64,000 bases of DNA from Phytopythium helicoides (taxonomy: Eukaryota > Oomycota > Peronosporomycetes > Pythiales > Pythiaceae): positions 62,001-126,000 of the forward strand of contig JANFNE010000068.1 of the NCBI GenBank assembly GCA_024867545.1. Direction: 5' to 3'. Below, in pieces: positions 6,439 to 52,690 of the stretch. Position 1 is the stretch's first letter, and every line of letters starts with the position of its first letter. The notes beneath the pieces are model-generated. The model made no database searches. It worked only from the letters and a program-made list of their open reading frames with translations, and was not told the origin of the DNA. A program made the position numbers and the translations under genes.

Positions 6439-7910
6439 ATGAGCGCGCTGACGGCCGAGGAGAACGACTGGGTGTTCGACTACGTGATGAACGTGTTCCG
6501 ATCACCGGCGTGGGAGGTGCCAGTGCTGTGCTTCATCGACGAGCACTGCGCCGTGTTCGACGCCGAGGACGAGAACAAGTTCGTGCACTCGGAGCTGCAC
6601 GAGCAGTTCCGCGAGCTGGTGGAGCGCGTGCTGAGCGACAACCTGGCCGAGATCGGGCTATCGGCCGCCGACTTTGCCGACGTGTGCGAGCGCAGCCGCG
6701 GCAGCAGTGGCGGCGGTGACGATGCTAGCATGGATGTCGTCAACCAGATCCTGGCCATGGACGACTTCCTCACGTTCAAGAAGCTCATGGTCAAGCGCAA
6801 CCTGGAGCTCGAGCTCGAGGCCATCCGTGCGCTGCGTGATGAGGTGGCGGATGACGTTGCGGCCGACGCCGCAGCCAGGGACATGGAGGCGCACCTCATG
6901 GAACTGAGCGTGCTTTATAAGCAGGAAGAGATGGAGCAGGCCGAGCTCGAGGCCGCGCTTGCCATGTCGCTGAGCGTTCAGGAGGAGGAACTACGGCGCG
7001 CCAGCGTCGCGTCCAAGGCCGCCGAGGACAAATTCGCGGACCCCACGACCATGACGGTGCTTTCGCCAGAGGAGGCACACCGGCAGCTGCGCGAGAGCAA
7101 GAAGAAAGCCGAGGAGATCTGCAAGAAGAACAAGGAGGCCCTGGCGGAGAACCGCTCGAAACAGCGCGAGTGGCAGCAGGCGGCCGAGATCTCCGAGGCC
7201 GAGCTGCGCCGCCGAGAGGAGTACCTGCGCAAGCAGCGCGATCTGCTCGTAGAGAAGAAGCGCAAAGAGCGCGAGACACAGCTCAAGGAGTTCCGCCAGG
7301 AGACCAAGGAGACCCCACCCGAGCCGGTGCGTCGCGTTGGTGCTGCTGGATTAGCGGTGGTCCTGCTTGTAGCTGCGTATTGACTAGATGCGTTCGTTGC
7401 CTCAATCATGAAGCCGGCGCAGCTCGTGGAGAAAATCCAGAGCACGACGCCCGAGGAGCTGAAGAAGGCAGAGGTTGAGGAGCGTCGTGCCGCGCTGCGA
7501 CTCGCTCTGGCGCGCCGCATGAAGCAGGACCTGCTCGACTCGGCCGTTCCCACGGACGACGCAGACGGCTCCTACGGCGGCTTTCGTGCGCAGCAGGTAT
7601 CTTTTCTCGCTGATTTGTCGTGCAGAGGCTGTCACCACTGACGCGACTGTGATATGACCGCAAGGTGGTCGAGCTGGACGGAAAGCTGCAGCGAGTTGAG
7701 GAGCTGCGGCGCAAGAGCCAGGAGCGAGAGCAAAAACTGCATGCACGGCTGGTACGTGGCTTGCTATAAGATCGATTCAGACACTAGGATAGTTGCGGAT
7801 GATGCCAACGATGGTGTGGGCGCAGGCGGGAGGACTGCGAGCGTAAGGACCTCGAGTGGATTGGACTCGGGACAACATCGGCATCAACTGCAAGCACTGG
7901 GATTTCTTAA
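6439..7910 (+). CDS. CFAP36: cilia- and flagella-associated protein 36 (BART domain + coiled coil)
   Basis: The first exon (from ATG 6439) encodes about 296 residues. The N-terminal 110 or so form a BART domain: DWVFDYVMNVFRSPAWEVP, FIDEHCAVFD, ENKFVHSELHEQFRELVE and ILAMDDFLTFKKLMVKRN align in order with CFAP36/CCDC104. A long Glu/Lys/Arg coiled coil follows. At least three further small exons continue the coiled coil; the last acceptor is ambiguous, so the end may be 7846 or 7910. In other eukaryotes the BART domain binds ARL3 and the protein acts in cilia. Its presence fits an organism with flagellate zoospores. It diverges from RMI2 across 190 bp. Confidence 0.8.
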
Positions 7911-10207: not shown

Positions 10208-10405
10208 GCTGCTGCGCGTCGAGGGGCAGGCCGGTCGGGGAGGAGCGGCGCGGCGGCGAGAGCGAAAGCGAAAGTGAGCGCTCGCAAGATACGGCGGCGC
10301 TGACGGGGCGGAGGCATACAAGCGCCAAGAGAGCTCACGTGGAAAAGCTGCGGAGAGCTCGACGTGCACTTCAAGCTGGCGCCGACGTGACGGCCCGCAG
10401 CGTCG

Positions 10406-25300: not shown

Positions 25301-25486
25301 ATCGCTGGCGTTGTTGCTATCGAGCCCCTTGGAGATGTCAACGCCCAGCGCTGCTGCGACGCCCGCGATACCGCCGAGCTTGGCGAGCTGTTCGCCCTGG
25401 TGCTCGTGCGGCGTCTCGACGAGCCGGATGAGGTCGCTCGCCAGCAGCTTGAACTGCGCCGAGCCCTGCGGCTCCGAGTGGATCAT
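22373..25486 (-). CDS. plasma-membrane-type Ca2+-transporting P-type ATPase (P2B)
   Basis: A single-exon gene of 1037 residues. All P-type hallmarks are visible: DESAMTGES (actuator domain), VVAIPEGLPLAV (M4 with the Ca2+-site Glu), CSDKTGTLTTNRM (phosphorylated Asp), MVTGDNISTA and VTGDGTNDAPALKKANVG (hinge). LQFQLTVNIVAI and MLWVNLIMDSFASLALATE in M5-M6 are PMCA-like (one Ca2+ site). It is somewhat shorter than animal PMCAs, and I see no long C-terminal calmodulin-binding tail after M10; the end is basic (FSSKKMPAF). A Lys/Asp-rich insert follows the actuator domain. It exports Ca2+ at the plasma membrane or into the vacuole. Confidence 0.95.
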   Translation of the reverse strand: MIHSEPQGSAQFKLLASDLIRLVETPHEHQGEQLAKLGGIAGVAAALGVDISKGLDSNNASDLKRREETFGSNYIPPPRSKGLLELMWDAFQDLTIMVLTLSGIVSVILSVTVGDHPDTGWIEGACIIFAVFVVTFVTAINDYQKEAQFRSLNAVKEDEKIKVVRNGQPAEVSKYGIVVGDIVRVDLGDIIPADGIVFDEKELKLDESAMTGESDLLVKNVENPFLLSGTKVMEGLGKMMIICVGENSQAGIIKKLIQGKDKKKEKDDKGKPAATPVTPAHQVPTQTPGDPSKNGTVEQKEEYEEHGVSPLESKLNRLTVQIGKLGTAVSILVFIILCIRYSARMFGGGKHKWENKYISDYLQFFITAITVLVVAIPEGLPLAVTISLAYSVKKMLLDNNLVRHLDACETMGSATTICSDKTGTLTTNRMTVMQAWIGGQEFSSAAQVADEMSESTKDVFCNGICINSTAEILPPKNPGGQPDHTGNKTECALLQFVRDCGVDYPQVRANTEVAHMLTFSSKKKRMSVVVKRSMSTCRIYTKGATEVVLGLCNKMKRLDGSVASLDSNQKEIIGNSIIEKYASQGYRTLCLSYRDVECSAEEISKWNDDDVETDLTCVAIVGIEDPVRKEVPESIRLCHRAGIVVRMVTGDNISTARSIAGKCGIISQGDNSLVIEGQEFRKRVLDGNGNIIQAEFDKIWPHLRVMARSSPKDKYTLVTGLIQSNLMPYGPQVVAVTGDGTNDAPALKKANVGFAMGISGTAVAKDASDIILMDDNFTSIVSAIKWGRNVYDSIAKFLQFQLTVNIVAISLAFLGAVILEQSPLTAVQMLWVNLIMDSFASLALATEPPTPALLERRPYPRTKPLLSKIMTKHMLGQSVYQLAILLLLTFVGDSMMDIPSGRYSDLSDEDKNKPTQHMTMVFNSFVWMQLFNEINCRKIHDEFNVLEGVLQNRVYMYVTVLQILMQILIVEGTGDFFNCTGLTAAQWGVSIGFGAASIPIRALLREFSSKKMPAFCRDVDEATGSTGRVGISGGRAS

Positions 25487-29204: not shown

Positions 29205-30063
29205 TGTGGTGAAGTGGACCAGGAATTACTGAGTCTCGCAACGTCAGTGTCGATTATCAACTGAGTGGTGGCGGATATCAAAATGGTGATGTCCGATACC
29301 AAATATGGGGTGGTGTATACCAATACCGACCGTCAACACTCAGTGACCGTCGACACTCAGTGACCGTCGACATTCAGTGACCGTCGACGCTCAGTGCTCA
29401 TCGACAATCAGTCCATCAACACTCAGTGACCGCCGACACTCAGTGACCATCGACACTCGGTGATCGTCGACACTCAGCGACCGTCGACTCAGCGACCGTC
29501 GACGCGCGGCTACCATCGATGTCCGATAACAGTCGACAATCAACGACCATCGGCATCAAGCAGCCGTCGGTCCAGCGGTCCCGCGGAGGCAAGAGAGCCA
29601 GCGACAAGGATGGGCACGAAGGGAATTCACAAGCGGTAGGACATCAAGGTTAGCGCAAGATGAGTGGCTAGGATCAGTCTCGAATTTACTTCGGAGGGCG
29701 CAAGTCCTCACCTCTCTTTGGTTCTCCGTTTCGATTCTCATTCAAGTCTAACACTCAAGGGGAGTGGAAAGGTGATACAAAAGGTTTTGGTCTGCTATTT
29801 GGCGCGTGCGGGAGAGCACCCCGCCACACACTACACACCCGAGGAGTGAGGATTTCCACGCCGCGGCACACACTCCAAACCCCAACTCTACCTCAACCAG
29901 CGTGGGCACTACCCATCGAGATCGTGACCGAACGTCGCCCCAGGCCGACGGGTACACAACGTGACTATTACCACACCGGGGTAACCCCTCCGTAAGTCGG
30001 CATACACGGGCACGCGTGAGATAGGCGACGAGTCTGGTGATTCCAGACACGCGCTTCTCCACA
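29205..30063 (+). repeat. 5' LTR of the Gypsy element
   Basis: Begins TGTGG and ends CCACA, preceded by the target duplication ACGT. It appears identical to the 3' copy over 859 bp by reading. It contains a diverged array of 17-18-bp units at about 29327-29500. Confidence 0.95.
29327..29500. repeat. diverged tandem array inside the LTR (unit about ACTCAGTGACCGTCGAC)
   Basis: About ten units of 17-18 bp, related to ACTCAGTGACCGTCGAC, repeat with small changes. The same array lies in the 3' LTR at about 41596-41769. Each unit holds GTCGAC-like palindromic cores, which could be protein-binding sites in the U3 promoter. This is inference. Confidence 0.75.
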
Positions 30064-32346
30064 ATGGTGCGCATGCCCGGATCTCGTGACACTGACGAAG
30101 ATGCGCATATCAAGGAAGAGCCCGGGGCTCATGGTAATGGCGAGTACGAGGTGTCGCCGGCGTTTACCGACGCCACAACACCCGTCGAGCAGCAGACAAC
30201 GGAGGGGGCATCTGCTGCAGGAGACGAGGGCTATCTCGAAGATAAGCCACAAGCCCCCGTTTTGGGTCTCGACCTTCGAGATCCACTTGCTGGTGAACTC
30301 AGAGTAAAATCTGAATCACCAGCACCAAACCAGGCGATACGAGCGGTGGTCTCTGCTGTGACGCTGAAGAAGAAGCCCGCCAAGGTGACCAAGGCCAAAT
30401 CGTCGACGGGGAAGAAGAAGCTGAAAGCTCCGAGCTCAGACGCCGAGACGACGACCGAGAAGAATGCCTCAGCCGTCGACAAAATGCTAGAGTACGCTTA
30501 TGCCCGGCAAGCGTTGTTCGAGTTCATTCGCCGTGATCCAGTGTTGCGTTTGTACACGACCCGGCTCCTCAATGACCTAACCGGCCCGGTGGCACCCCCG
30601 CTCCCGCCCGTGAACATGCTCGCTGCAGGCCAGACTCTCACGCGTCTACTAGCTGACGCAGGCTTCGCTGTTGAGTCAGTGGAGGCGAACGAGTTCCTGG
30701 AGCTGGAGTTGGACGACGTTCGCACAGCGGTTGGCAAGTTGTTTGACCTTCTCTCGTCGTTGGTCGGCACCAAGGCGGCAGGCAAGCGTCCGGCTAGTCG
30801 CGCGACAAACCCGGAGGTCCAAGACGCTCACCCCGACGCTCCAGGATACCAGACGGGGTCCTCGCACTACCTCACACCGTCGTCAGAACCAGACTCGGAC
30901 GCGTCAAGCGGAATCCAACGGATGACACTGGGACCCGGAGGAGCAGCAATGCTCCGCGCACGGCAGTCACTTCGCGCAGATGCGGAAGAGTATACACCCG
31001 TCCGAGACGCCAACACCCGAGGTGCAGCAACGGCAAACCCCGCGAACACCGCCAGGAAAGTCAAAGCTGTGTCGACGACGCCGCAAGCCGCGTTCGATGC
31101 AATGATGGAAGAGTACCTTCGACGCCAGCAGACAACGGCAAGAGCGACAGTCACGCCTCGGGCTGAAGAGGACATCGAGATGGAGTCTGTCGATTCTGCC
31201 GTACACCGTTGGGAGTACGACCCGGACGACCTAGACTGGACGCCAGCGCGGGCTGTGGCAGCTGCCACTGCCATCACCCCCCAAGCGATCATGCCTCGTG
31301 TACGGATGTCGGCGACGTCGGACCTGAAGGAGTTCTCTGGGAAGGATACGGACGACGATCGAGCCCGCAGTTGGCTCGGCAAGGTCAAGACAGCGTTCAG
31401 CCGAGACCAAGCAACGGACGAGGAGAAGTGTTTGATCTTCGGAGATCTTTTGGTTCGACCAGCCCGCGATTGGTATCGCCAGCTCAGCCGATCGACGCGC
31501 AACTCGTGGCCAGACCTGGTGGAGCAGTTCCAAGTTCAGTACTGCGGGCAAGGCGTCTCAGTCGCTCGCCAGTACTACCACGCGCGTAAACGCTCAGACG
31601 AGTCGCCACTGGATTACTTGTACCGGCTGAACGTCGCTGGACTGCGTGCCCGCCTGAAGATCAAGGACGGGCCTGCGGCAACACGCCGAGAACACGTGGA
31701 GCACTTCATCGAGACACTCGACGATCAAGACCTCGCCGATCAGCTGACCATGCTACGTTTGCCCGACGCCGAAAGTCTGGAAGACGTCTTGCGGTCGAGG
31801 CAGCGCGCGAAGAATCGTCAGCGTAAGGCCACTTATGGGTCCAACAAGTTCAGACAGAAGCCAACGTCGACACCAACCCCGGCGGCAAATACCCGGGCCG
31901 TCCATATCATCCACGCCGGAAGGGAAGACAGCGAGTCGGACGGCGACGCCAGCAGCTCCGAAGGAGAGGGCGACTTGCGACGCATATACCTTGCGACAGC
32001 CAATGAACGTCCGACCGTCGACGGGGAGAAGCAAGTGCCACCTGACCGCGGCGACCAAGGCCGACAGCCCCGTGAACATCGTGTTGACCTCAGCGGCAAC
32101 CGCTGCTCGCACTGCGGGTCACTCAAGCACAACGATCTGGGGTGCTGGAAGCGGCTAACCTGCCAGAAGTGCGGTAAGCAAGGCCACCCGTCCGATCGAT
32201 GCTTGTTCGTCTGCCGTGGATGTGGAGAACTGCACGACATCGGAAAATGTCCGATGGAGGAGTTTTACAACCTTGTCCGCCAGTGGTACAACCCGTCCAA
32301 GCATGCGGGGATGTTGCCCGGTGACGCCGAGAAGATGTTAAACTAG
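30064..32346 (+). CDS. gag: Gypsy Gag polyprotein
   Basis: 760 codons from the ATG that directly abuts the 5' LTR. An N-terminal disordered Ser/Thr/Lys-rich part is followed by a capsid-like retrotransposon-gag region (DLKEFSGKDTDDDRARSWL, WYRQLSRSTRNSWPDLVEQF, around 31,320-31,540). The C-terminus carries zinc knuckles: CSHCGSLKHNDLGC and CQKCGKQGHPSDRC are both CX2CX4HX4C, and CRGCGELHDIGKC is a variant third one. It forms the particle and binds element RNA. The stop at 32344 follows directly on a slippery heptamer. Confidence 0.92.
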   Translation: MVRMPGSRDTDEDAHIKEEPGAHGNGEYEVSPAFTDATTPVEQQTTEGASAAGDEGYLEDKPQAPVLGLDLRDPLAGELRVKSESPAPNQAIRAVVSAVTLKKKPAKVTKAKSSTGKKKLKAPSSDAETTTEKNASAVDKMLEYAYARQALFEFIRRDPVLRLYTTRLLNDLTGPVAPPLPPVNMLAAGQTLTRLLADAGFAVESVEANEFLELELDDVRTAVGKLFDLLSSLVGTKAAGKRPASRATNPEVQDAHPDAPGYQTGSSHYLTPSSEPDSDASSGIQRMTLGPGGAAMLRARQSLRADAEEYTPVRDANTRGAATANPANTARKVKAVSTTPQAAFDAMMEEYLRRQQTTARATVTPRAEEDIEMESVDSAVHRWEYDPDDLDWTPARAVAAATAITPQAIMPRVRMSATSDLKEFSGKDTDDDRARSWLGKVKTAFSRDQATDEEKCLIFGDLLVRPARDWYRQLSRSTRNSWPDLVEQFQVQYCGQGVSVARQYYHARKRSDESPLDYLYRLNVAGLRARLKIKDGPAATRREHVEHFIETLDDQDLADQLTMLRLPDAESLEDVLRSRQRAKNRQRKATYGSNKFRQKPTSTPTPAANTRAVHIIHAGREDSESDGDASSSEGEGDLRRIYLATANERPTVDGEKQVPPDRGDQGRQPREHRVDLSGNRCSHCGSLKHNDLGCWKRLTCQKCGKQGHPSDRCLFVCRGCGELHDIGKCPMEEFYNLVRQWYNPSKHAGMLPGDAEKMLN
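30065..30082 (+). other. primer-binding site of the Gypsy element
   Basis: One base after the LTR end the sequence reads TGGTGCGCATGCCCGGAT. TGG is the complement of a tRNA 3' CCA end, so this is the expected PBS. It would pair with a tRNA ending ATGCGCACCA; which tRNA that is cannot be decided here. The PBS overlaps the gag start codon (ATGG at 30064). Confidence 0.65.
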
Positions 32347-32387
32347 GACGCTCGCCAGGTTGGAATCTGGTACGAGCCGAGCGATCC
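32337..32387 (+). promoter_or_regulatory. candidate -1 ribosomal frameshift signal, gag to pol
   Basis: The heptamer GTTAAAC (32337-32343) is read G TTA AAC in the gag frame and directly precedes the gag TAG. Slipping back one base leads into CTA GGA CGC of the pol frame, which is open only from 32325, a 19-nt overlap window. Five nt after the heptamer, CGCTCG (32349-32354) pairs with CGAGCG (32378-32383). GGA/TCC extends this stem and an inner CCAG/CTGG stem nests inside. GUUAAAC is a proven slippery site in some nidoviruses. Confidence 0.72.
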
Positions 32388-35300
32388 GAAGTTTGTATCT
32401 TCGCTTTCGTTGAGAAGCAGCCCAAGGAGGTGATCGACGCCACGTTGGTCCCTCCAGTTGATAATACACGTGAGTTGCATGACAGCCACGCGGTCTCGAT
32501 CGCCACCCTCCACACGACAGATGAATATCGACGAGTCGAAGTAGCGATGGCCCTGAACCTGTTGCCCGGAGAGTCGAGAGGGTACTGGAAACACCACGCT
32601 CCGGACAAGTGGTTCAAGCAGGCGAAGGTTCACGCGAAGCTCAACAACGAAAAGGCCATGCTACTGTTCGATACTGGCGCCGAGGTGTCCATCGTGGACA
32701 CCACCTTTGCTCGTAAGGTAGGCTGCCACATTGACGACAGTAAGCGGCAAGAATGCGTGGGTATCGGCGAGGGTTCATACCTCACAGATGGACGGACGCG
32801 AATCAAAGTGACGCTGGGAGGATCACTGGTGTACTTCTTCGACGCCTGGGTAGGTCGACTGGCTGGTCAAGATGCGATCCTGGGAATGGACTTCATGGTT
32901 CCTGCGGGCGTACGCCTTGATATGGCCGACGGCTCCGTGTGTCTCCCAGAGGAAGTGCGGCTTCGACTAGATGGGCGACGACAGCTATTCAGCGATCGAG
33001 CACGGCTCGTGACAGCCGAAGGATTTCCGTCAATCGATCCTGGAGAGTCGGTGGAGATTCCTTTGCGTGTCAACCGATCGGAGAAGCAAAAGCTCTGGGT
33101 AACGCGAGGTGAAAAGTGGGTCCCGTCGATTGTCCAAGGCCCGGGGCAGAAGCGATTCTTGAAAATCACGAACGTCGGCGACGAGGAGCTGAGGTTAGGT
33201 CGACTAGAACGACTTGGTCTCTGGTTATCCGGCGACCACGTACCAAGGCTGCCTGGATTCGTCTCGGAAGGTTCTCGCCGCTATGAGGAGTGGCAAAACT
33301 TGGCGTACGAAGCGACTCAGGACTCTGCACAGCTGGATGAACCAGAAGACTCAGAGCGGGTACCGAGCGTTTCCCGCCGAGAATATGTTGTTCCACGCGG
33401 GATACTGAGCAGGCCGAAACTCGAGGCCCCCACGGTTAGCTCCGTCGTCGCTCCCAGACAGCGGATACACCCCGTCAACGTCAGAAACAGTCGAGAATCG
33501 CAGGACGACCACGCGGAACCAGTCTCTTACTATCATGAGGGTAGTGAGCTGTTCGCCGAGGACATCGAGTCACAGATGGCGGTACTGCCCGAAGTGGCGT
33601 CAACGACAGAGGAAGTGAAGATTGACGATCTAAAAGTTGGTGATCCTGCCGTGAACACTCCCGAGGAAATCGACCGGTTACGCGCGATTATCTGGGAGAA
33701 GAAACACCTCTTGATCGACAAAGGCAATGCTCTTCCACCGGCTGCAAAGGGAGCCGTCTGTGACATAGATGTCGGAGGAGCGAAACCGATCGCCCAGCGG
33801 GTCAGGAAGATACCACCTCAGTTCCGCGAGAAGGTGGCTGAACTCTTGAAGGGGTTGCTGAGCGCCAAGATAATCCGGCCGTCGACTTCACCTTGGGCGT
33901 CACCGATCGTCGTGGTGATCAAGAAGAATGGAGTTGACATCCGGTTGTGTATCGACTATCGCCTCGTGAACAATTTGACGAGGCTGATGGTATACCCGAT
34001 GCCTCTGATCAACGACCTGTTGGAGGATCTCGAAAAGGTCTTGTGGTTCTGCTCCTTGGACATGGCAAGCGGCTTCTGGGTTGTCTCGATGACTGAGCGA
34101 GCACGCGCGATATCAGCCTTCGTGACACCATTTGGGCTCTTCGAGTGGAACCGGATGCCGTTTGGGCTGAAGAACGCGCCGCAGATCTACCAGCGACTAG
34201 TCGATAATGCTCTGTATGGGTTTCTCCGACTCCCATCGGCCGAATATGAAGCAGCCGATCTCTACGCGGTAGGAGTGCCCGACGACGTCCACCGACCGTC
34301 CGTCCTGGGTCGTCGATCCTATATCGACGACATACTCATCGCTGCTGAGAGCTGGGATGACTTGTGCGAGAAGACGTCCCGACTGCTGAACGCCTGCGAC
34401 CAGTGGAACCTGTCGATCAGCGTCGCCAAAAGCTACTGGGGAATGCCGAACGTCGACTACTTGGGGCATCGAGTGAACTCCAACGGTCTGGAGGCTCGTC
34501 CGAAAGAGCTGGAATCTCTGTGTAATTTGCCGTTTCCCACTTCATTGCGGGCAATGCAATCCTTTCTGGGAAGTTTGAACTACTACAATCGCTTCATCGA
34601 AGACTTCGCAGTGTACGCGACCGTGCTTTACGAGCTTCGCGAGGTCGATTTTCACGGTAAGTCAGAGATCGATGCCAGCGACAGTCGACTAGAGCGGGCA
34701 ACAACGGCATTCGAATTGCTCAAGCAGAAGATCGCTGCAACGCCAATCCTCCGGCACTTCGACTCGGAGAAAGAGTGCGTCGCAATCGTGTATGCCAGTG
34801 AGTGGGCCGTCGCGGCCGCCCTGGTCCAAGAACACGACGGAATCATCGAGCCAGTGAAGTTCACGAGCCGCACTCTGAAGCCGAACGAGCTGAATTACTC
34901 GGTGGTCGAGAAAGAGATATTGGCGCTGCTTCGTCTACTCGACAACTGCTTTACGATGCTTGCAGGCAGGTCGGTGCGCGTACTGACGCGACACAGCACT
35001 CTCGGTTGGCTTTTACGGTCGCATGGACTCCAAGGTCGACTCGCACAATGGGCCGCCCTTCTCTCGCCTTGGTCGCTGGAAGTTACACGCTGTACTGGGG
35101 GCGAAGACGAAGTACTGGGGGCGATCTCAGCGAGCATAACCCCACGCGATCAAGTTGACGAAGCGTTAGTCCGAATAGCCCCGAAGAAGCATCCATTTCG
35201 GTCAGTCCAGGTTCCTTTACCGGTCATCGACGACGAAGAAGAGTTGTTGGTCATCAGCTTCGATGGATCAGCTAAGATCAAGCGAGGTGACAGCGCGTAC

Positions 35301-35756
35301 AGTGCCATTGTGTGGCAGTTACCCGAGTGGACGGTTGTCGCTGGTGGATCAAGGCATGAACAAGGGCTCACAGTCAACGAGGCCGAATACCGCGGGCTGA
35401 TGATGGGGTTGGATCTGGCAGCGGAGCTCGGTAGGCAACGGCTAGTCGTCTGCGGCGACTCCAACTTGGTCATCCGGCAACTTCGCGGTGAGATCGACTG
35501 CAAGGCACCAGGGCTACAGCTGCTACGTGGTCAGGCACTCGACAGGCTGAAAACTTGGCCAAGATTCGAGTTGGTACATGTCAAGCGCGAATGGAACAAG
35601 AGTGCCGACCTCTTGGCTGGCGTGGCCCTCCAGCAACAGAGAGGGTCGACGGTCGAGAAGGATGAAGCCCGTGAAGACTTGATGGTGCTGACCGCCTCGA
35701 TGAAATCATCATGCCCAAAAGTCGGAGTCATACCCCGAGGGTCGACGCCGTCGTAA
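32343..35756 (+). CDS. pol: Gypsy Pol part 1: protease, reverse transcriptase, two RNase H domains
   Basis: About 1137 codons in the -1 frame relative to gag. Protease: LLFDTGAEVSIV, active Asp at 32670. RT: CIDYRLVNNLT, FCSLDMASGFW, FGLKNAPQIYQ and YIDDILIA (34320-34331; the catalytic pair is intact). The normal RNase H after RT reads IVYASEWAVAAAL where active copies have a TDAS motif, so its first catalytic Asp is lost. A second RNase H follows (35260-35630) with all four acidic residues: ISFDGSAKIK, VNEAEYRGL, VVCGDSNLV and NKSADLLAG. There is no ATG near the start, consistent with frameshift expression. It ends at TAA 35754. Confidence 0.93.
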   Translation, partial: LGRSPGWNLVRAERSEVCIFAFVEKQPKEVIDATLVPPVDNTRELHDSHAVSIATLHTTDEYRRVEVAMALNLLPGESRGYWKHHAPDKWFKQAKVHAKLNNEKAMLLFDTGAEVSIVDTTFARKVGCHIDDSKRQECVGIGEGSYLTDGRTRIKVTLGGSLVYFFDAWVGRLAGQDAILGMDFMVPAGVRLDMADGSVCLPEEVRLRLDGRRQLFSDRARLVTAEGFPSIDPGESVEIPLRVNRSEKQKLWVTRGEKWVPSIVQGPGQKRFLKITNVGDEELRLGRLERLGLWLSGDHVPRLPGFVSEGSRRYEEWQNLAYEATQDSAQLDEPEDSERVPSVSRREYVVPRGILSRPKLEAPTVSSVVAPRQRIHPVNVRNSRESQDDHAEPVSYYHEGSELFAEDIESQMAVLPEVASTTEEVKIDDLKVGDPAVNTPEEIDRLRAIIWEKKHLLIDKGNALPPAAKGAVCDIDVGGAKPIAQRVRKIPPQFREKVAELLKGLLSAKIIRPSTSPWASPIVVVIKKNGVDIRLCIDYRLVNNLTRLMVYPMPLINDLLEDLEKVLWFCSLDMASGFWVVSMTERARAISAFVTPFGLFEWNRMPFGLKNAPQIYQRLVDNALYGFLRLPSAEYEAADLYAVGVPDDVHRPSVLGRRSYIDDILIAAESWDDLCEKTSRLLNACDQWNLSISVAKSYWGMPNVDYLGHRVNSNGLEARPKELESLCNLPFPTSLRAMQSFLGSLNYYNRFIEDFAVYATVLYELREVDFHGKSEIDASDSRLERATTAFELLKQKIAATPILRHFDSEKECVAIVYASEWAVAAALVQEHDGIIEPVKFTSRTLKPNELNYSVVEKEILALLRLLDNCFTMLAGRSVRVLTRHSTLGWLLRSHGLQGRLAQWAALLSPWSLEVTRCTGGEDEVLGAISASITPRDQVDEALVRIAPKKHPFRSVQVPLPVIDDEEELLVISFDGSAKIKRGDSAYSAIVWQLPEWTVVAGGSRHEQGLTVNEAEYRGLMMGLDLAAELGRQRLVVCGDSNLVIRQLRGEIDCKAPGLQLLRGQALDRLKTWPRFELVHVKREWNKSADLLAGVALQQQRGSTVEKDEAREDLMVLTASMKSSCPKVGVIPRGSTPS

Positions 35757-37441
35757 CGCGTGCTCGAGCTAGACAAAGGCGCACGGACATCGTGCTGGAC
35801 GAAGATCTTGTCCAGAGGATCCGAATAGAGAGGATTGTGCGCGCACAGAACGAAGAGGTGTGGATCGACAACCTCAAAAAGTTTCTGCGAGGTGATCTGG
35901 GGGCGATGGCACAAGCGGATGTGAAGACCTGCGCAAGTATCGCTAGTCAATTCGAGGTCGACGAGAGCGGGTTACTCTTCTACATCGTACCGACAGATGC
36001 TGCGGGCGAGGACCGAGACTCTGTCGCACGCTTAGTGTTGCCGGAAACACTACACGACGACGTCCTCCACCACTACCACGCGAGCCTCGAAGGAGGTCAT
36101 CAGGGGATTGGCCGAACATACCAGAGGGTGCGGCGTCACTTCTACTGGAGAGGCCTATACCGCAGCGTGCAACGTTACGTGGGCGAGTGCGTCGACTGTG
36201 AGACTGGCAAAGGCCGACCAACCATCCGAGGAGAGTCGCCAGGGAACATCGAGGCCACTTACCCTTTTCAGGTCGTCGCGATGGACCACATCCCGTCGCT
36301 ACCCAAGTCGTTCAAAGGCAACACTGAACTCTTGTTGTGGGTCGACCTCTTCTCCGGATTTGTAATCGCAAAGGCCAGTGCATCACGCACGGCGCAGACG
36401 ATTGCCGAGTCATACGAAGAGTGTGTCTTTCGTCGGTTTGGGGCCAGTGAGGCGATACGACACGACCGAGAACCTGGGTTCATGTCCGACTTTTTCAGAG
36501 CTTTCAACAAAATCGTCGGGCAGAGGCAACGAGCCACGTTAGCATATCGACCGCAAGCAAATGGAACGGCCGAACGCATGGTGCAGACACTCACCCGAGC
36601 AATCAAGATGTACGTCAGCGATGAAGCTCAGCGCGACTGGGACGAGTATGCCGAACGGCTGACGTTCGCGATTAACACCGCTCACGACCGCATCAGGCTG
36701 GACACTCCATTCTATCTGGTCCACGGCTGGGACCCTCGCTCAACTTTGGAAGCATCGCTGCCTATTGGAAGCACAAGACGTCAGGACCGAGACGCAAGGC
36801 GATGGCGCTTCCATATGCAGCAACACTACCAGCGAGCGAGAGCACACGTTAATGACTTGCTTGTCGAGGCACGAGGAAGCCGAGCTGAGAGACAGAACGA
36901 ATCAGTCAGACCACATCACATCGAACAAGGCTCACGTGTTTGGCTGTACCTCGATCGCGTCCGAGAGGGCTACGCAAAGAAGTTGGCACACCTCTGGCAC
37001 GGCCCGTTCCGGGTGGCTGACAAGGTGTCAGAATTTGCAGTCCGTCTGGAAGTGGCCGGTAGCGATTACAGGGTGTTCCCGATTGTGCATGTCTCCAAGC
37101 TGAAGCTAGTGCGGCAATATCCGGAGCGACCAACAACAGCGCTTACTGTCGACGAAGACAGCCGACTCGACTTCGACGAGGAACTCTTGCCTGGAGATAG
37201 TTGGACACAAACGTTGGAAGACGACGAGTACGAGGTTGAGAAGATATCTGACGTACGTACGGGGCGTCGCACTCGATACGGGCGCGTCTACCGTGAGTTT
37301 TTGGTGCACTGGAAGGGGTATGACGAACCCACATGGGAGGATGAGGCCGATCTCAACTGTGGAGCCCTCCTCCACGAATTTCTGCGAGACAGAGCTCGAC
37401 GCGGGCGGTTCGGGGTCATGCAGTCGCTTGACGCCGAATAG
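35711..37441 (+). CDS. Gypsy Pol part 2: integrase with C-terminal chromodomain
   Basis: 576 codons from ATG 35711; the frame is open from 35675. A zinc-binding HHCC region (HASLEGGHQGIGRT, CVDCETGK) precedes the DDE core: VVAMDHIPSLP, AIRHDREPGF and RPQANGTAERMVQ supply the three acidic residues. A GPY/F-like module (LWHGPFRVADKV) is followed by a chromodomain (EYEVEKISDVR, FLVHWKGYDEPTWEDEADL). Chromodomains of chromoviruses bind modified histone tails and steer integration, here presumably to heterochromatin. It is intact. Confidence 0.94.
   Translation: MPKSRSHTPRVDAVVTRARARQRRTDIVLDEDLVQRIRIERIVRAQNEEVWIDNLKKFLRGDLGAMAQADVKTCASIASQFEVDESGLLFYIVPTDAAGEDRDSVARLVLPETLHDDVLHHYHASLEGGHQGIGRTYQRVRRHFYWRGLYRSVQRYVGECVDCETGKGRPTIRGESPGNIEATYPFQVVAMDHIPSLPKSFKGNTELLLWVDLFSGFVIAKASASRTAQTIAESYEECVFRRFGASEAIRHDREPGFMSDFFRAFNKIVGQRQRATLAYRPQANGTAERMVQTLTRAIKMYVSDEAQRDWDEYAERLTFAINTAHDRIRLDTPFYLVHGWDPRSTLEASLPIGSTRRQDRDARRWRFHMQQHYQRARAHVNDLLVEARGSRAERQNESVRPHHIEQGSRVWLYLDRVREGYAKKLAHLWHGPFRVADKVSEFAVRLEVAGSDYRVFPIVHVSKLKLVRQYPERPTTALTVDEDSRLDFDEELLPGDSWTQTLEDDEYEVEKISDVRTGRRTRYGRVYREFLVHWKGYDEPTWEDEADLNCGALLHEFLRDRARRGRFGVMQSLDAE
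35714..35720 (+). promoter_or_regulatory. candidate second -1 frameshift site, RNase H to integrase
   Basis: CCCAAAA is read C CCA AAA in the pol frame and fits the X XXY YYZ rule in exactly the phase needed to enter the integrase frame. The two frames overlap only over 35675-35753, and this is the best slippery heptamer I see there. An ATG at 35711 in the integrase frame would alternatively allow reinitiation. Downstream pairing is weak (ACCC/GGGT). Confidence 0.55.
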
Positions 37442-38524
37442 CATCCAAAATATCGCAGGTGGGCTGGCCACTCTGCGTGAATGGGCGAAGCGTCAATGGG
37501 GTGGCCACGGATCGAGGAAGGAAGGGAGGGGAAAGGAGATACGTACCGAAGAAGTTCACTCAAGCGAGCGCAGTTGTCCAAACGGCAGCTGCTTGCCAGA
37601 TGTATGTCTCGAATAGGCACAACGGTCGATGGCGGTGAAGTTCAAGCCCGACGACCGACTTCCGAGGAGGACGCCCCGCTGTCACCGATCAACCGTAGAC
37701 GTGTGAAACATTCAGCGAGCAGTCGATGGTCGCCAAATGGTGATGACTACCGACGATCGACGATGGTCGGGAGCCGATGGATGCCGACAACGATGGCCAG
37801 CAATCGACCGACGACGGCCGAGGTTCGATAGCTGACAGTCGACGACTGACTATGGCCAATGATCAAAAGCTGACAGTCGACAACGACGATGATGTTCCGT
37901 GACCATTGGCCGAGGACCAAAGATCGGTGGTTGGCCAGTCTCGACCGTACTTGATGATGGACGGCCGATGAGCCCCGACAACGAGCGATGACCAGTGAAA
38001 AGTAACGGCGACGGTCGTTTTGAACGTCGGCTGAGGCGAAGGCTGACGGTTGTAAACCAGCGATATTAACGCCGACGACCAGTGGACGACTTTCACGGGT
38101 AGCAGATGCCTATGGCAGTCGATGATCAGTGGTACCGACGGCCAACCACTAGCAACTCCAGCCAGCAAACCATTCAACACCGACAGTCGTTTGAGTGTCG
38201 ACCAAGATGTGTGCCGATCGTCGATGGCAGTCGAAAGAGACTAGATTGCTAATTGTCAGCCGACAGTCGATGCCGGCGACAATTACGACCAACACTGACG
38301 AAAGTCGGCAGGCGACGGCCGACCTTCGATGCTCGGTAGTAGCCGCGGTCGACAACCGGAGTCAAGAAGCAAGAGATAAACAAGCTGACGGGCGCAAGTC
38401 ACGTGGTGGAAGTCGAAAGATGAAGTCGATTGAACTCAGGCGCGAAAAAAAGGGGAAACTACCGTCGATGAGAAGAATGCCGTTGAGGCGCAATTTCGGC
38501 TACAGGAGATCGCGCGCCAGCTGC
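37442..38524. other. non-coding spacer of the Gypsy element
   Basis: About 1.1 kb with many scattered, degenerate GACCGNCGA/CGATGGTCG motifs reminiscent of the LTR array, and no long open frame on either strand. It separates the integrase stop from the 3' end of the antisense gene. Confidence 0.55.
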
Positions 38525-41388
38525 TCACGAGTCGGCGACCGTGGCCACAGAGACGAAGAACTTGCGTGAAAGGCGCTGGATACGGAGTGCAGGATGGTCG
38601 CGAGGCGAGTTCACGAACTGGAGGCGCCATGGTTCTTCGCTGTCGAGAGTCACCAACGCCTCGGATAATGACTTTGGGGCGATAGGCTGACCCAGGCCAG
38701 GGTACCAGTGTCGCTCCTGACGACGCGACGGCAGGCGAAGGAAGAAGGGGTCTAGTAGCACGTCAAGGTCGCAGACACCACGACGGATGAGGAGCAGGAG
38801 TTTGGCCATCACCTTGGAGACTTGGGCGCCAGCACGAGAGCGATGAGCGTGACGCTTGCGCTTGTAAACCTCGTATGCTTCCCACTGCTCTTTATCCACC
38901 GGCTTGGGTAGTACATGTGTGGCTTCCCAGAACGCAATCGCGTGGCTCTCGACCGCCGCCTTGTAAGCTGCCACGATAGGTGCAAACGAAATGTCTTCAG
39001 CGTCGAAAGTCACTGGCGAGGGGCGCTCTCGTAACACTTCCCATGGCTTGGAAGCATAGAGAGTTGTGATCTCAGCTTCGGTGATCAGTGCAGGGTGGTA
39101 CGCCGACAACGGAGCCGCCTTGGTCGACTGCGGGAATAGCCAGTCGTCTGGAAGGAGGTGAGCGTCGACCAAGTGGTGGACTGTCAACTCCCCAGCCGTC
39201 AGCCCACTAACCTCGGCGGCTACCCAAGGCCGCACGTCGGACGCAACAAACTCTTGAGGCGCCAGAAAACCAGGGATACACGGCCTAAATGTTGGTGTAG
39301 TTTGGACAGACGCGTCGTCGCCCGTTGAGGTGTTGGGAAGGTCACCATCGACTGCCCTGCCACCTGTCATCTCGCCGTCGTCGTCGGACGAGAAGCCACT
39401 GTCCTCGCTGCCGAACAACTCGTCATTCCGAGCGACTCGCAGCGTCGAAGACGAACCTATCACGGATGACTCGCTGGTACCAACGGAAGAGGTGCGCCGT
39501 GCAGCACTGCGGGACTTGGCCAGCACCGCCTTGACGATCTCGTCGTCGCTGCTGATGTCCACTCCCTCGTCGTCAGATGCCTCAACGCGCCGACTTGCCG
39601 CCTTCATGCGGGAAGAGCGATTGCCAGAAGACTGCACAGAATGCGTCTGTGGGTTGCCCACACCTTCGGTCAGCTCCACCACGTCCACCGCGTCTATCCA
39701 ATGGCCAACACAGACGGGTTAACAACGGGCTGTATTGAGAGCGTTAAGAACGGCGGTGAGACGCACCTGCACCGGTAGATGAGTCGGAAGCTGGCGGAGA
39801 AATGGTAAGGTCGACGTCGACCCCGTCGCCCGATGTGGCAGCACGACCAGCCGCTCGGTCAACAGTCCGCGCCGACTTCTTGTGCGGCGGGGAGGATTCC
39901 GAAGTGCCGCTGGATCGCCGACGCTTCGGTCTGTCGGGAGCCGTGCCCACCTTCTTCTTCTTTGAGCTAGCACCCACACGACCAGTCGCCGGAGGAGGCG
40001 AAACCGCTGATGAAGCCGCTGGAATGGATGAGACCGAAGGAGGAGTGCCACTTAGAGGTGAGTTCTCGGAGGCGGCCGTTGAAGGTAACGGCGGAGCGCC
40101 TCCAGAGTCAGTGGGAGCTTGGGGGGATGGAGCACCTGCGGGCTGGGAGAGAGATACCGAAGCCAGCAGCGGGGTGCTGGCCCAGTCCATCACTCGCGCG
40201 ATCGACCGAAATCGATCCGCAAGAGCATCACGCTCACTTTCGACTGTGCGGAGGCGCTCGGTAACAGTGGCCGCTTCCGCCAATGCCTTCTCTCGGGCCG
40301 CTGCCGCAACTAGCTGTGCAGCCTCCGCGGCTGCCCGCGCACGCTGCAGCCCGTCACGCTCGCGCGCCAAGCCGCGCACTTCTCCTTCCAGGCGTGTCAC
40401 GTCGGTCTGACAGTCTGCGAGAAGGAGTCCTACCACACAGCAAGGTGTTAGACACCGTGGAGCAAAGGACAAAGAGTCACAAGCACGTACGGAGCTCTTT
40501 CAGTTCGCTTGCAGCAGCGGTTGCCGCCTTCTCGCTGGCCTCTTGCGATGTCACTGCCGCTTGTAGCTCACCGCGGATGTGGTCGAGCTCCGCCTCGATC
40601 GAGTTCTTACGGCCTGCGACGTCCTCCAGCAATCGCTCGAGCTCGTGCTTCTCGTAGCTCGAAGCTACACGGTCGCGGGAACGCGCCTCCAAGGCGTCTG
40701 ACAGCTGACGTTTTGCGCGAGCGAGCTCTTGTCGGAGCCGATCTACTTCGTCGACGGCACGCGCACGCTCCGCCTCAGCTGCTTGACGCCGGTCGGCTGC
40801 AGCTTGTGCGGCTCGTAGCGCCCGATCACGCGATGCAGCAGCTTCACGAGCAGTATTAGAGGGTGTCACCGAAGCTCCTGTGGTTAGAGGCGATAGTCTC
40901 GGTGACGTAGAAGCTGAAGCAAACGCACTCGCTTCATCAGTTGACTCAACAGATGCGCTTGGAATGACGCTGACACCGCTGTGAGCTGCCGTCGAGAGGT
41001 TGTGCACCTCGGCGTGCAGATCCGAGACATGGCGGCGCAGGCCGAGATACGATTCAGCCAGCGCAGTGCGCTGGCGGCCGAGCTCGGAAGCCACGTCGCT
41101 CAGCGTAGACACAGCTTGAATCACGCCGAGCACCGAGCGGAAGGAGGCTTGTGCGGAAAGCAGTGCAGCAAGGTTCGGAGATGATGCCAGGGCAACCGCT
41201 CGAAGGTCTTCACACGCGTCACACGCCCTGAGGGCGACCGGCGTCGGCGGTAGAACGGGTGGCCGAGCCGCAGTCAACGCAGGCGCTACGGTTGGCACGG
41301 TAGATGATCCTTCTGGCTCCGTCGCAGCAGGAGCGCCACCACTGGATGCATCAACCGCAGAGCCATCGGCGGGGTCGACTGTTGTCAT
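38525..41388 (-). CDS. antisense three-exon gene inside the Gypsy element, 909-residue nuclear-type coiled-coil protein, unrecognised
   Basis: Exons 40491-41388, 39767-40429 and 38525-39693 join in phase (each junction phase 1). Intron 1 (61 nt, GTACGT...GGTAG) has a CTAAC branch site; intron 2 (73 nt, GTGCGT...GATAG) has TTAAC. The protein has a Ser/Pro/Ala-rich N-terminus and a long coiled coil that crosses the first splice (AELDHIRGELQ ... ELRLLLADCQTDVTRLEGEV). Basic clusters KKKKVG and RPKRRR suggest nuclear import, then an acidic SDDE stretch, and a folded-looking C-terminal half (FLAPQEFVASDVRPWVAAEV, WYPGLGQP). I recognise no family. Its upstream end lies 85 bp from the 3' LTR, so LTR-borne antisense promotion is likely. 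Confidence 0.8.
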
Positions 41389-41460
41389 CTTGTGCGCGCG
41401 CTGGAGAAGTCCAAGAATGAGTATACTCTCACCCCAGCACGGCTGTACCACACTGGGGCG

Positions 41461-41473
41461 ACAGGGGGGCGGC
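41461..41473 (+). other. polypurine tract of the Gypsy element
   Basis: ACAGGGGGGCGGC lies immediately 5' of the 3' LTR, where the plus-strand primer of reverse transcription is expected. It is G-rich and nearly all purine apart from single C residues. Confidence 0.6.
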
Positions 41474-42332
41474 TGTGGTGAAGTGGACCAGGAATTACTG
41501 AGTCTCGCAACGTCAGTGTCGATTATCAACTGAGTGGTGGCGGATATCAAAATGGTGATGTCCGATACCAAATATGGGGTGGTGTATACCAATACCGACC
41601 GTCAACACTCAGTGACCGTCGACACTCAGTGACCGTCGACATTCAGTGACCGTCGACGCTCAGTGCTCATCGACAATCAGTCCATCAACACTCAGTGACC
41701 GCCGACACTCAGTGACCATCGACACTCGGTGATCGTCGACACTCAGCGACCGTCGACTCAGCGACCGTCGACGCGCGGCTACCATCGATGTCCGATAACA
41801 GTCGACAATCAACGACCATCGGCATCAAGCAGCCGTCGGTCCAGCGGTCCCGCGGAGGCAAGAGAGCCAGCGACAAGGATGGGCACGAAGGGAATTCACA
41901 AGCGGTAGGACATCAAGGTTAGCGCAAGATGAGTGGCTAGGATCAGTCTCGAATTTACTTCGGAGGGCGCAAGTCCTCACCTCTCTTTGGTTCTCCGTTT
42001 CGATTCTCATTCAAGTCTAACACTCAAGGGGAGTGGAAAGGTGATACAAAAGGTTTTGGTCTGCTATTTGGCGCGTGCGGGAGAGCACCCCGCCACACAC
42101 TACACACCCGAGGAGTGAGGATTTCCACGCCGCGGCACACACTCCAAACCCCAACTCTACCTCAACCAGCGTGGGCACTACCCATCGAGATCGTGACCGA
42201 ACGTCGCCCCAGGCCGACGGGTACACAACGTGACTATTACCACACCGGGGTAACCCCTCCGTAAGTCGGCATACACGGGCACGCGTGAGATAGGCGACGA
42301 GTCTGGTGATTCCAGACACGCGCTTCTCCACA
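41474..42332 (+). repeat. 3' LTR of the Gypsy element
   Basis: 859 bp, TGTGG to CCACA, followed by the target duplication ACGT at 42333-42336. It matches the 5' LTR without a difference I could find. Confidence 0.95.
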
Positions 42333-42558
42333 ACGTGAACTTCTCCTGCAACGACCGGGGCACACCCTCCGGTATAGACCATGGAAAAGTGCCCTGGAAA
42401 GCACGCATTCCACATTTCGGAGACTGACACAGTGCTGTCGCTTGCCTCTTTAGTCACTAAGTCTACTCCGCTCCAGGAAAGCGTACAATCTAAACGTGTC
42501 AACAACTACGACTCGCTTACTGGTAGCATCGAATACAGCTTCAACCTGTGGGTAAAAT

Positions 42559-48446: not shown

Positions 48447-48813
48447 TGTTGCGGGTAGCCGGTTTGACCTGGACCGACTAGCCCGAGGCAGTCCAATGCG
48501 ATCCCACGTTGATTACGCTCATCGATTACGTCAACTCGTGGGTACGAGATTGTGGGTACAAGATGGGATCCACGTGGCGCCCTCTGATTGGCTGCCGTGA
48601 ATCAGTATCCAGGAAAAGATCAAGTTGAGTGAACCCAGTAAAGGACAGGCAGGCTTAGAGGTAGCAAGTAGTTGCGAACTAAGGACCTCAATCGAATCAC
48701 TTTCGAATCTTCCTTCTACCCCTCAAGTGGTCTTCGCTCCGGTCTTCTGTCCAAGTGAAGAACTCCCTCCGCTCCGCCCAAGCTTCGTGTCCAAGACCTC
48801 ACTACCTCCAACA
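48447..48813 (+). repeat. 5' LTR of the Copia element (367 bp)
   Basis: TGTTG to CAACA. It contains a 62-bp segment, including an ATTGG box, that the 3' LTR lacks. Confidence 0.93.
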
Positions 48814-48829
48814 GGTTATGAGCCCAAGC
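48814..48829 (+). other. Copia primer-binding site, half-tRNA-iMet type
   Basis: GGTTATGAGCCCAAG directly follows the LTR. The first 12 bases are complementary to the anticodon arm of initiator tRNA-Met (GGGCUCAUAACC), not to a tRNA 3' CCA end. Drosophila copia likewise primes from a half tRNA-iMet. The PBS contains the first ATG of the gag-pol frame (48818). Confidence 0.7.
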
Positions 48830-51800
48830 ACCATGTCCTCTGCGCAAGACGCCTCGACCAAGGTCTCCATCGACAAGTTCAACGGAGACAACTACGCGAC
48901 TTGGAGCCGCTACATGCGTGGCGTGTTCCTGACCAAGTCGACGTGGCATGTCGTGAACCGCGAGACGACTCCGAGCTTCACGGATCCGCGGGCCAAGGAC
49001 GACTACGTCAAGGCAAGCAGCATCGCGTTCGGCCTGATGTTGCATCATTGCACTGAAGTCCTCAACATCAGCTCCAAGCTCAGCAGCATCGGCGCCAAGA
49101 TGGAGGACGAAGATGTGGCGATCTGCTTGTTGCGCAGTCTCCCCAAGAGCTACGAGAACCTCGTGCTCAACTTGGAGATGAGCAACGCAGAGCTGCGGAC
49201 GCGAGATGTTGTGAAGGTGCTCACGAATGAGCATATCAAGCGACAAGGCGAGAAGACTCCGGCGATGAAGACTGAAGACGCGACCAAGGCGTTCAGTGTC
49301 GACCGAGAGCCTCGCCAGTGCACTTACTGCGGCAAGATGGGGCATTTGGTTGACAAGTGCTGGACCAAGCAGAAGGACGAGAACCGAGGAGGTCCGAGAC
49401 GCGGCGGCAATGGCCGTGGACGCGGGGCCAACAGCGCTCAATGGAGGAACGACGACTACGACTACGACAACCAGCGAGTTGCGTTTGCGGTTTCCCTCGA
49501 GTGCGGAGTTTCGACGGGCGAGAAGATGCCCGGGATGTGGGCGGTCGACAGCGGCACAACGCACCACATCTGCAACGACAAGACCAAGTTCGCCAGCCTG
49601 ATTGAGCGAGATGACGGCGAACTATCGGTGGCCAACGGCAACAAGGCGGCTATCAAGGGTGTGGGAAGCATCTTCGAACGAGTGCTTCTGCCCAACGGTG
49701 AAGAGCGCGAGATCGAGATCAAGGACGCGCTGTATGTTCCTGAAATGAGCAAGAATCTTCTATCGGTGCCGCAAATCAACAAGAGTGGCCAGTTCCAAGT
49801 GATCTTTGACGGCACCAAGATACACGTTGCGCGCAAGGCTTCAAAGCAAGTGGTGGCGATGGCAGACCTCGTTGACGGACTCTACTGGCTTCGCACACCT
49901 CAGCGATCGGCTAACGCGGCAACCAGTGGAAGAGCTGTTGATCTGCACGCGCGTATGGGTCACGCTCCAGTCGAGGTGCTTCGCAAGATGGTCGACAACG
50001 AAATGATCAAGGACGCGAAGCTACCCTCCAGCTCGAGTGGACCAAGCGTGTGCCGCGGCTGTCAACAAGGAAAGATGGTCCAAAGGCCATTTCCAAGCAA
50101 TCGTGACAAGTGCCACTACGACACGTTCGAGTTGCTCCACTTCGACATCTGCGGACCCATGGAAGAAGACTCTCTGGGTGGAGGCAAGTATCTGCTGCTG
50201 ATCGTCGACGAAGCCAGCGGATGCATGAAGGGATTCTGTCTGAGTGCCAAGTCGGAAAGCGAGGACTGCATCAAGACGTACATCACCAAGGTCCAGAACC
50301 AGTTCGGCAAGAAGGTCAAGTTCGTGCGTCATGATGGAGCGCGTGAGTTTGCCACCAACTCGCTCAAGATGTTCTACGAAGACGAAGGCATCGAGCAGCA
50401 AACGACGGTTCCCTACGCGCACCAGACCAACGGCACGGCAGAACGAGCCATCCGGACAATCGTCACGATCGGCCGCAGCATGCTTCACCACGCCAAGATG
50501 GACAAGATCTTCTGGGCTGAGGCAGCGATGACAGCCATCTACGTCAAGAATCGTCTACCGTCTCCCAAGTTCCAGCACAAGACTCCGTTCGAGATTCTGT
50601 ACAAGTCCAAGCCAAGTGTGAAGCACATGCGTGTGTTTGGCTGTCGCGCTTACGTGCTGACTCCGAAAGAGAAGCGGCTCAAGTGGGACCCGAAGTCTCG
50701 TGCTGGGTTGTTCGTCGGATGTGAGGAAGCGTCAAAGGCCTATCGGGTATATGGCATCAAGGCGGGGCAGGTGGTTATCACTCGCGATGTCACCTTCGAC
50801 GAATCGACTTTCGGCTTCTCGTCAGCGGCCTCCGACGAAGACGTGGATGATCTCGCCTTCGACTCTCTCGAAATTGCTGAAGATGGACCAGGACAGACGG
50901 ACTACACGCAGGCGGGGAAGCGCAAGAGCCGATCGGCGAATGAAGATGACACTACTGGAAAATCGCGGGCTGTTCGACACCGAGTTGGACTGGAAGAAGC
51001 AAGCGCACCGCGCAGTTCTCCCTCGCGCCAAGAAGATGAAGAAGAAAAATCTGGCGACCGACACGACGGCTCGGACCCCTCGACTCCTCCTGTGTTTTGG
51101 CGAGCAAGTGCCAATGCTGTGGAAGCCTCCGACCTCTCCGAGCCAACTACATTCGAGGAAGCAGTGAACGGTCCGGATCAAGCTCACTGGCGCAAAGCGA
51201 TTCGCGCTGAGCTGGAATCGATGCGACTTCGAGGTGTGTTTCGTGCGGCCAAGCTTCCAACGGGACAACGCGCCATCGGCACCAAGTGGGTTTTCAAGAT
51301 CAAACGAAAGGCTGACGGGTCCATCGAGAAGTACAAGGCACGCCTCGTGGCCAAGGGTTTCAAGCAGAAGTACGGCATCGACTACACGGAAACGTTCTCG
51401 CCCGTTGTCAAGTACACGACGCTGCGCATCGTGATCGCACTCATCGTCTTCTTCGGTTGGCAACTCGATCAACTGGACGTGGTGACGGCATTCTTATACG
51501 GCGTGATGAAGGAGGTCGTGTACTGTGTGGTTCCTGAAGGCGTCGAGTTGGACGGCGGCTTTGACTGCCTTGAGCTGGTGAAGGCGATCTACGGCCTCAA
51601 GCAAGCTTCGCGTGTGTGGAACGAGACCTTCGACGAGTTCGTGTGCTCCATCGGCTTCCAAGTGTCAGCGTTCGACCCGTGTCTCTACATCAAGATCGTC
51701 AACGACCACTGCGTGCTCATCTTGGTCTACGTCGACGATGTTCTGGTGACGGGAAGCTCGATCGAGCTGATTGCACGCACCAAGTATGACCTGAAGATGC

Positions 51801-52690
51801 GCTTCGAGATGACCGACAGCGGCAAGTGTGCGTTCGTGCTCGGCATCGAGTTGGTCTATGGACCCGATGGAAGCATCACACTGTGCCAGCGACGCTACAT
51901 CAACGACATCCTCACGCGTTTCAACATGCTCCAGTGCAAGGCTGTGGTGAGTCCGGTCGACATGAGTTCGCGTCTGGTTGCAAGCGACGCATCTACCAAG
52001 GTGAGCGCTCCGTTTCGGGAAGCGGTCGGCGCCTTGATGCATCTGATGACAGCGACTCGACCGGACATCGCGTATGCCGTGGGCTACGTATCGCGCTTCA
52101 TGGAGAACCCGCAAGAGGAGCACTGGGTTGCGGTCAAGCGTATCTTTCGCTACTTGCAAGGCACCAAGGACCACGGAATCTGCTTCAAGCCCGGCAACGT
52201 CATCGACTTTCGCGGCTACTCCGACGCCGACTGGGCTGGTGACCTCGCTGATCGCAAGTCGACATCCGGCTACACCTTCATGTTGATGGGCGCACCGGTC
52301 AGTTGGGGAAGCAAGAAGCAGTCAAGTGTCTCTCTGTCGACAAGCGAAGCGGAGTACATCGCGCTCAGCCTGGCCATCCAAGAAGGCAAGTGGATTCATC
52401 GCGTGGTTTGCGAGATCCTTGCGGCTGCGAACAAGTCGGGACCAGAGCTCATGATCCGCGAAGACAACCAGTCGTGCATCAAGATGACCAAGAACCCGGT
52501 CAACCACGGTCGCGCCAAGCACATCGACATCAAGTACCATCACATCCGCGATGAAGTCAAGCGTGGTGAAGTCAAGCTCGAGTACTGCGAGACTGCGACG
52601 ATGCTGGCCGACATCATGACCAAGGCGCTCCCGGGACCTCGCCACACGGAACTCACGGCGGCTCTCGGCATCCATGGGACTTCGCATTGA
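48818..52690 (+). CDS. Copia Gag-Pol polyprotein
   Basis: 1290 codons from ATG 48818 (an alternative in-frame ATG is 48833). In order: gag ([14 protein letters not shown]), zinc knuckle [14 protein letters not shown], protease [11 protein letters not shown], integrase HHCC ([14 protein letters not shown]) and DDE ([28 protein letters not shown]), RT ([31 protein letters not shown]) and RNase H ([29 protein letters not shown]). The frame has no stop or shift, so it could still be coding. The single-frame layout contrasts with the three-frame Gypsy. Confidence 0.95.

Follow-up and report, generated by a model that had tools for sequence, protein, structure and literature searches.

Several retroelements carry an additional gene on the strand opposite to gag and pol; what is said here of the cited papers refers to the excerpts available, unless the main text is named. 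In the plant elements Tat/Retand, Grande and RIRE2, antisense open reading frames lie between pol and the 3' long terminal repeat (LTR), and the antisense product of Grande is nuclear (PMC11963269, PMC7264820). A regulatory role was proposed for the plant TRP28 antisense frames (PMC11963269). In Botrytis, Boty-like elements are Gypsy elements with an extra antisense gene, brtn (PMC8365987), the function of which is described as unknown (PMC7264820). The antisense genes HBZ and APH of human T-lymphotropic viruses (HTLV) are transcribed from the 3' LTR side; the HTLV transcripts are spliced, the products are mostly nuclear regulators, and some APH proteins are also found without a bZIP domain (PMC10186651). 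In oomycetes, the Chronos Ty3/Gypsy elements have a dual RNase H and, behind the integrase, a chromodomain (PMC5348765). Here, we describe a window of 64,000 nucleotides from Phytopythium helicoides (contig JANFNE010000068.1, positions 62,001 to 126,000), in which a Chronos-like LTR retrotransposon carries an antisense gene of 909 codons with two introns (38525..41388, minus strand).

The gene lies between integrase and 3' LTR, as do the plant antisense frames, and the window element, compared by description, resembles the Boty-like elements in being a Gypsy element with an extra antisense gene. The antisense genes of Retand encode TRP28 (PF04195), whereas this domain was not found in the window gene by Pfam. 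HBZ is a small protein with bZIP, in contrast to the predicted window protein with its 909 residues and two introns within the coding region, and we regard the likeness to HTLV as one of layout, not of descent. With its second RNase H and the chromodomain behind the integrase, the domain set matches that of Chronos (PMC5348765); the element is called Chronos-like by domain order and not by a reverse transcriptase tree with reference Chronos elements. It differs in its antisense gene from Chronos as described in PMC5348765, where none is mentioned. The main texts of that paper and of PMC10508981 do not contain the word "antisense", nor do those of PMC11963269 and PMC7264820 contain "intron". 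No antisense retroelement gene of an oomycete was found among the open-access literature matches listed, subscription papers and Repbase reports being outside this search. Plants and Botrytis are known to have antisense genes at this position; the intron-bearing variant is new. It represents a third lineage with an antisense retroelement gene, which here is group-wide, bears introns and offers diverged copies for selection tests.

The gene starts with an ATG at 41388. Exon 1 (40491..41388), exon 2 (39767..40429; charged helical stretch, Ser/Pro linker, basic clusters and a VDLT motif) and exon 3 (38525..39693; acidic linker and C-terminal domain), all on the minus strand, join to 909 codons in frame with a single terminal stop. 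They are separated by intron 1 (40430..40490; 61 nucleotides, GTACGT...CTAAC...TAG) and intron 2 (39694..39766; 73 nucleotides, GTGCGT...TTAAC...TAG), both in phase 1. The joined frame confirms the structure proposed in a preliminary description of this DNA, namely three exons and two canonical introns with CTAAC and TTAAC sites. As neither intron length is a multiple of three, both introns have to be removed to keep the frame; the intron scan permits one alternative in-frame acceptor for each (76 and 103 nucleotides). The gene and the integrase frame are arranged tail to tail, with about 1.1 kb between their ends.

Both introns were found at matching places and in matching phase in the element families A (the family of the window element), B and C, the proteins of which are 41-44% identical. 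Intron 1 of B and C was taken from an automatic scan, which gave no candidate for intron 2 in these families; intron 2 of both was picked by eye with the frame kept. The length is a multiple of three in the second introns of families B (75 nucleotides) and C (72 nucleotides) and in the first intron of B (60 nucleotides); removal of these three introns follows from in-frame stops inside them. Family D has a single intron and lacks one at the first place, family H has one intron directly before a MIDLT motif, and the C2 and C57 types are single frames of 908 and 806 codons which hold the helical and C-terminal parts. The gene models of E, F and G are incomplete. As read from these sequences, the introns persist through retrotransposition, yet they are also gained or lost across types. 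Between the two D copies, 33 gap columns fall in an exon and 1 inside the intron, as expected if the intron stretch is cut from the message. The earlier proposal, that splicing acts on the introns in the antisense direction only and that they survive in the sense genomic RNA, is supported in its logic, and young elements keep them.

The gene is not restricted to the window. Exon 3 has at least 16 matches in the same genome (49 Mb, 100 contigs), the flanks of which were mapped piecewise with gag, pol and exon queries. In the fetched flanks, all antisense matches with an adjacent related integrase lie downstream of this integrase on the opposite strand. On contig C44, a truncated copy has no integrase beside the antisense match, and an integrase at the end of contig C86 has no antisense match. 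For a wider view, 43 integrase loci were listed by hand (integrases from about 40% identity upward, with fragments merged or dropped and one integrase of 36% omitted). Among the matches listed, the antisense family occurs within 4 kb downstream on the opposite strand at 30 of these loci and on the same strand at none of the 43. The distant H, C57 and C2 types and the C25 type also carry the gene. The "passenger gene" of the preliminary description is intron-bearing and, as shown below, under selection, but it is not confined to one element, since it recurs at these 30 loci. The integrase and antisense trees agree for families A-F. The antisense domain changes faster, with 52% for A against B or C, compared with 96% and 87% for the integrase. 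Copy B on contig C86, with an integrase 96% like that of the window and an antisense domain at 52%, could be a case of fast change or of recombination. The near-identical copy of the window element on contig C28 (430000-439999) has a second Gypsy element of opposite orientation nested in its pol region. Tandem-repeat arrays lie next to one element of family C and one of family D, and BLAST between the flanks of these elements gives many staggered matches.

Homologues were also found outside the genus. The preliminary description had suggested a search of oomycete proteomes with the C-terminal half, and residues 660-909 did return 11 proteins, all from Phytophthora, at 33-40% identity in the C-terminal part. 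The 33 proteins from a profile search include 32 named ones, all of these from Phytophthora; the profile held coiled-coil parts, and its lower matches may be cross-matches. The C2-type domain found one protein only, P0044. P0021 and P0033, relatives from Phytophthora fragariae, are labelled autophagy-related protein 16 by UniRef, possibly a misnomer caused by coiled coil. The homology suggests that some Phytophthora "hypothetical proteins" may be retroelement genes, including those behind the two labels of this kind.

Selection was analyzed by pairwise Nei-Gojobori ratios of non-synonymous to synonymous change (dN/dS); distant pairs are saturated, and the B model, which starts too far upstream, was not used. 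For the antisense gene, the C pair has 23 synonymous and 20 non-synonymous changes and a dN/dS of 0.30. The corresponding values are 81.5, 39.5 and 0.17 for the D pair, and 9, 9 and 0.37 for the A pair, which is formed by the window copy and the near-copy on contig C28. The excess of changes at third positions is strong in the D pair (81/121, p=5e-14) and present in the C pair (23/43, p=0.005). In the C and D pairs, pieces of gag and pol show a dN/dS of 0.13-0.24. Both C elements have LTRs of 1323 nucleotides without mismatch, the D elements show 0 and 1 LTR mismatch, and in such young elements, with identical or nearly identical LTRs, the antisense frame is still open. At least six C2-type copies, the query included, have open frames of 873-926 codons. 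These substitution patterns indicate that purifying selection acts on the antisense gene in the C and D pairs.

The protein consists of a variable N-terminus, a charged, Gln- and Ala-rich stretch, a Ser/Pro-rich linker, basic clusters, VDLT, an acidic linker and a C-terminal domain, which holds RSRAG, CDLD-LLDPFFL, WYPGL and EPWRLQ. The basic clusters KKKK and KRRR at residues 456-471, before VDLT at 505, bear out the nuclear-import-like clusters described earlier, a likeness by sequence only; we assume that they resemble nuclear-import signals, and that VDLT, with acidic residues and serine next to it, is similar to SUMO-interaction motifs. The pattern [VIM]DL[TG], followed by D, E or S within a few residues, stands near basic clusters and was found in 8 of 16 representatives, compared with a mean of 0.69 and a maximum of 5 in 2000 rounds of shuffling; it was chosen after looking, and the 16 rows are related. 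A regular expression for a shared SRS motif was discarded as too narrow. The composition, weak Pfam matches of the Phytophthora relatives and low-confidence helices weakly suggest a coiled coil. Pfam gave no family for the three exon frames at 0.001, neither TRP28 nor bZIP, and PDB sequence searches with the C-terminal domain were empty. With E allowed up to 5, Pfam matches were obtained for four of five Phytophthora relatives, mostly coiled-coil noise. The relative P0001 has a GRF zinc finger, perhaps from a mis-joined gene model.

On the side of the presumed promoter, a gap of 85 nucleotides (41389..41473) separates the ATG from the 3' LTR (41474..42333), which we take to be the upstream region of the gene. 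In oomycetes, the initiator has the consensus YCAYTYY and the FPR element the consensus MWTTTNC (PMC3599244). The gap holds TCATTCT, a candidate initiator-like motif, 32 nucleotides before the ATG in both A copies. The short candidate motif TCACTCT stands about 34 nucleotides before the ATG in both C copies; of the two D copies, one has AATTTCC, likewise short, and the other a broken form of it. The B row, with its wrong start, was left out of this comparison.

The antisense frame is very probably a real gene, because of its homologues, its placement on the opposite strand, the introns shared by A-C and the selection in the C and D pairs. We favor, with a probability of roughly 0.55, that it is a genuine spliced accessory gene with a nuclear regulatory role in Chronos-like elements. 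It would be transcribed from the 3' LTR side, against gag-pol, and the host would splice the antisense transcript only, so that the sense genomic RNA retains the introns and passes them on to new copies of the element. The product would then enter the nucleus and most likely act as a nuclear adaptor, with its charged and helical N-terminal half, basic cluster, SUMO-interaction-like motif next to the acidic linker and C-terminal interaction domain; SUMO-dependent contacts would be a concrete guess. By analogy to the antisense HBZ/APH of HTLV, it may tune the expression of the element or its relation to host chromatin and silencing. Function, origin by capture or domestication, and the persistence of introns through retrotransposition are now directly testable.

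Several results weigh against this reading. The SUMO-interaction-like motif is missing from 8 of the 16 representatives, Pfam found nothing for exon 3 even at E up to 5, no known domain being recognized, and two AlphaFold predictions (mean predicted local distance difference test values of 50.8 and 45.7) suggest only helices in the C-terminal part and are too poor to be read for a fold. Among the matches listed, 13 of the 43 integrase loci have no antisense-family match; one of them, at position 423525 of contig C36, has weakly similar antisense frames (398 and 757 codons; E 0.004-0.012), which leaves 12. A spliced antisense mRNA, being complementary to the genomic RNA, could also provide material for silencing. 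The third-position test of the A pair is not significant (9/18, p=0.11). The comparison of dN/dS across element copies, as put forward in the preliminary description, revealed constraint in the C and D pairs and no significant signal in the A pair.

Relatives of the gene also occur in host-like gene clusters. With a 668-codon stretch of a long frame on contig C68 as query (1153900-1156900), the C-terminal domain was found in tandem groups on contigs C68 (1129-1164 kb, at least 5), C90 (1156-1178 kb, at least 7) and C57 (495-518 kb, at least 8), and as single matches on C16 and C4. Those on C90 and C57 resemble mirror-image copies of one another. From 55 domain matches listed by hand, with short matches in LTR ends omitted, 22 lie in such host-like places and one further is the C44 copy. 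Neither the integrase domain H2C2 (at least 118 matches in the genome) nor RVT_1 (at least 139) is listed in the host-like stretches, of which the fetched DNA is a small part. A DNA query of 3 kb from the C68 group matched itself only, in a search that skips very common words. The C68 domain matched the C57-type element protein with E 1e-14 in a database of eleven sequences, and in an unrooted tree, in which the badly trimmed row P0044 is to be disregarded, the two host rows (support 73 for the pair) group with C57 and C2 (support 85). From these comparisons, either capture from the host or domestication by it seems to have taken place. The captured host gene of the preliminary description is supported by clusters without listed reverse transcriptase or integrase, but the small unrooted tree leans to domestication. 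Non-mobile host relatives are not reported for the plant and fungal cases in the excerpts of PMC11963269, PMC7264820 and PMC8365987.

We tentatively give domestication a little less than an even chance. The gene would have been first in elements, and the tandem host genes would descend from an antisense gene of the C57/C2 type which was kept and multiplied. The joining of the host rows with C57 and C2 points to this, and the presence of the gene in every integrase subgroup with fetched DNA suggests old age in elements, although the tree has two host rows only, fast evolution, no outgroup and the badly trimmed row. Capture, in which a Chronos-like ancestor took up a reversed member of a host family still present as tandem clusters, appears possible at lower odds. 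At least 22 places on C68, C90, C57, C16 and C4 have the C-terminal domain with no H2C2 or RVT_1 listed nearby, the 3 kb of the C68 group are single-copy DNA by the search used, and spliceosomal introns are typical of host genes; however, the host rows group with C57 and C2, and the host-like places might be elements without pol.

A role directed against the host is rather unlikely as an account of function. The protein would block small-RNA or SUMO-linked chromatin silencing, or steer integration together with the chromodomain. This would fit the SUMO-interaction-like motif and basic clusters, and small RNAs of both strands target LTR elements in P. infestans (PMC3522703), but half of the representatives do not have the motif. 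An old arms race, in which the element adaptor shields from silencing and the tandem, fast-diverging host relatives act against elements, is a distinctly improbable extension; if true, a retroelement accessory protein and a host defence-like family would share one origin. Retroelement antisense transcripts can act as RNA (PMC7264820), but that the RNA alone matters, with an incidental frame, is very improbable, and this was rejected on the dN/dS well below 1 and the third-position excess in C and D, the protein homologues and the shared introns. A chance frame, for which the 59-61% guanine-cytosine content of the region and further long frames (e.g., 39802-40410 on the plus strand) could be cited, has practically no weight in view of homologues, placement and selection, and an env-like gene is unlikely by strand.

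The genuine accessory gene favored here resides in a whole element of about 13.1 kb (29205..42333, plus strand), delimited by LTR comparison. The 5' LTR (29205..30064; 860 nucleotides) is identical to the 3' LTR, and the insertion is therefore recent; if the LTR is taken as TG..CA (859 nucleotides), the element is flanked by ACGT on both sides. A gag frame with zinc-knuckle-like motifs was recognized by translation (30037..32346, plus strand), and a Pfam search of this frame gave no match. It is followed on the same strand by a pol frame with protease, reverse transcriptase, RNase H and a second, RVT_3-type RNase H (32430..35756), identified by Pfam with RT_RNaseH at residues 778-879 and RVT_3 at 944-1063. 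The integrase frame (35711..37441, plus strand) ends with the chromodomain (Pfam Chromo, residues 507-558, E 9e-9).

The window also contains a copia-type frame of 1311 codons with RVT_2 and gag domains (48755-52690). Four host genes were assigned by Pfam beside the element, for a BART-domain protein (6382-7383), a fatty-acid oxidation enzyme (7982-10369), a major facilitator superfamily transporter (19397-20941) and a P-type cation ATPase (22373-25486).
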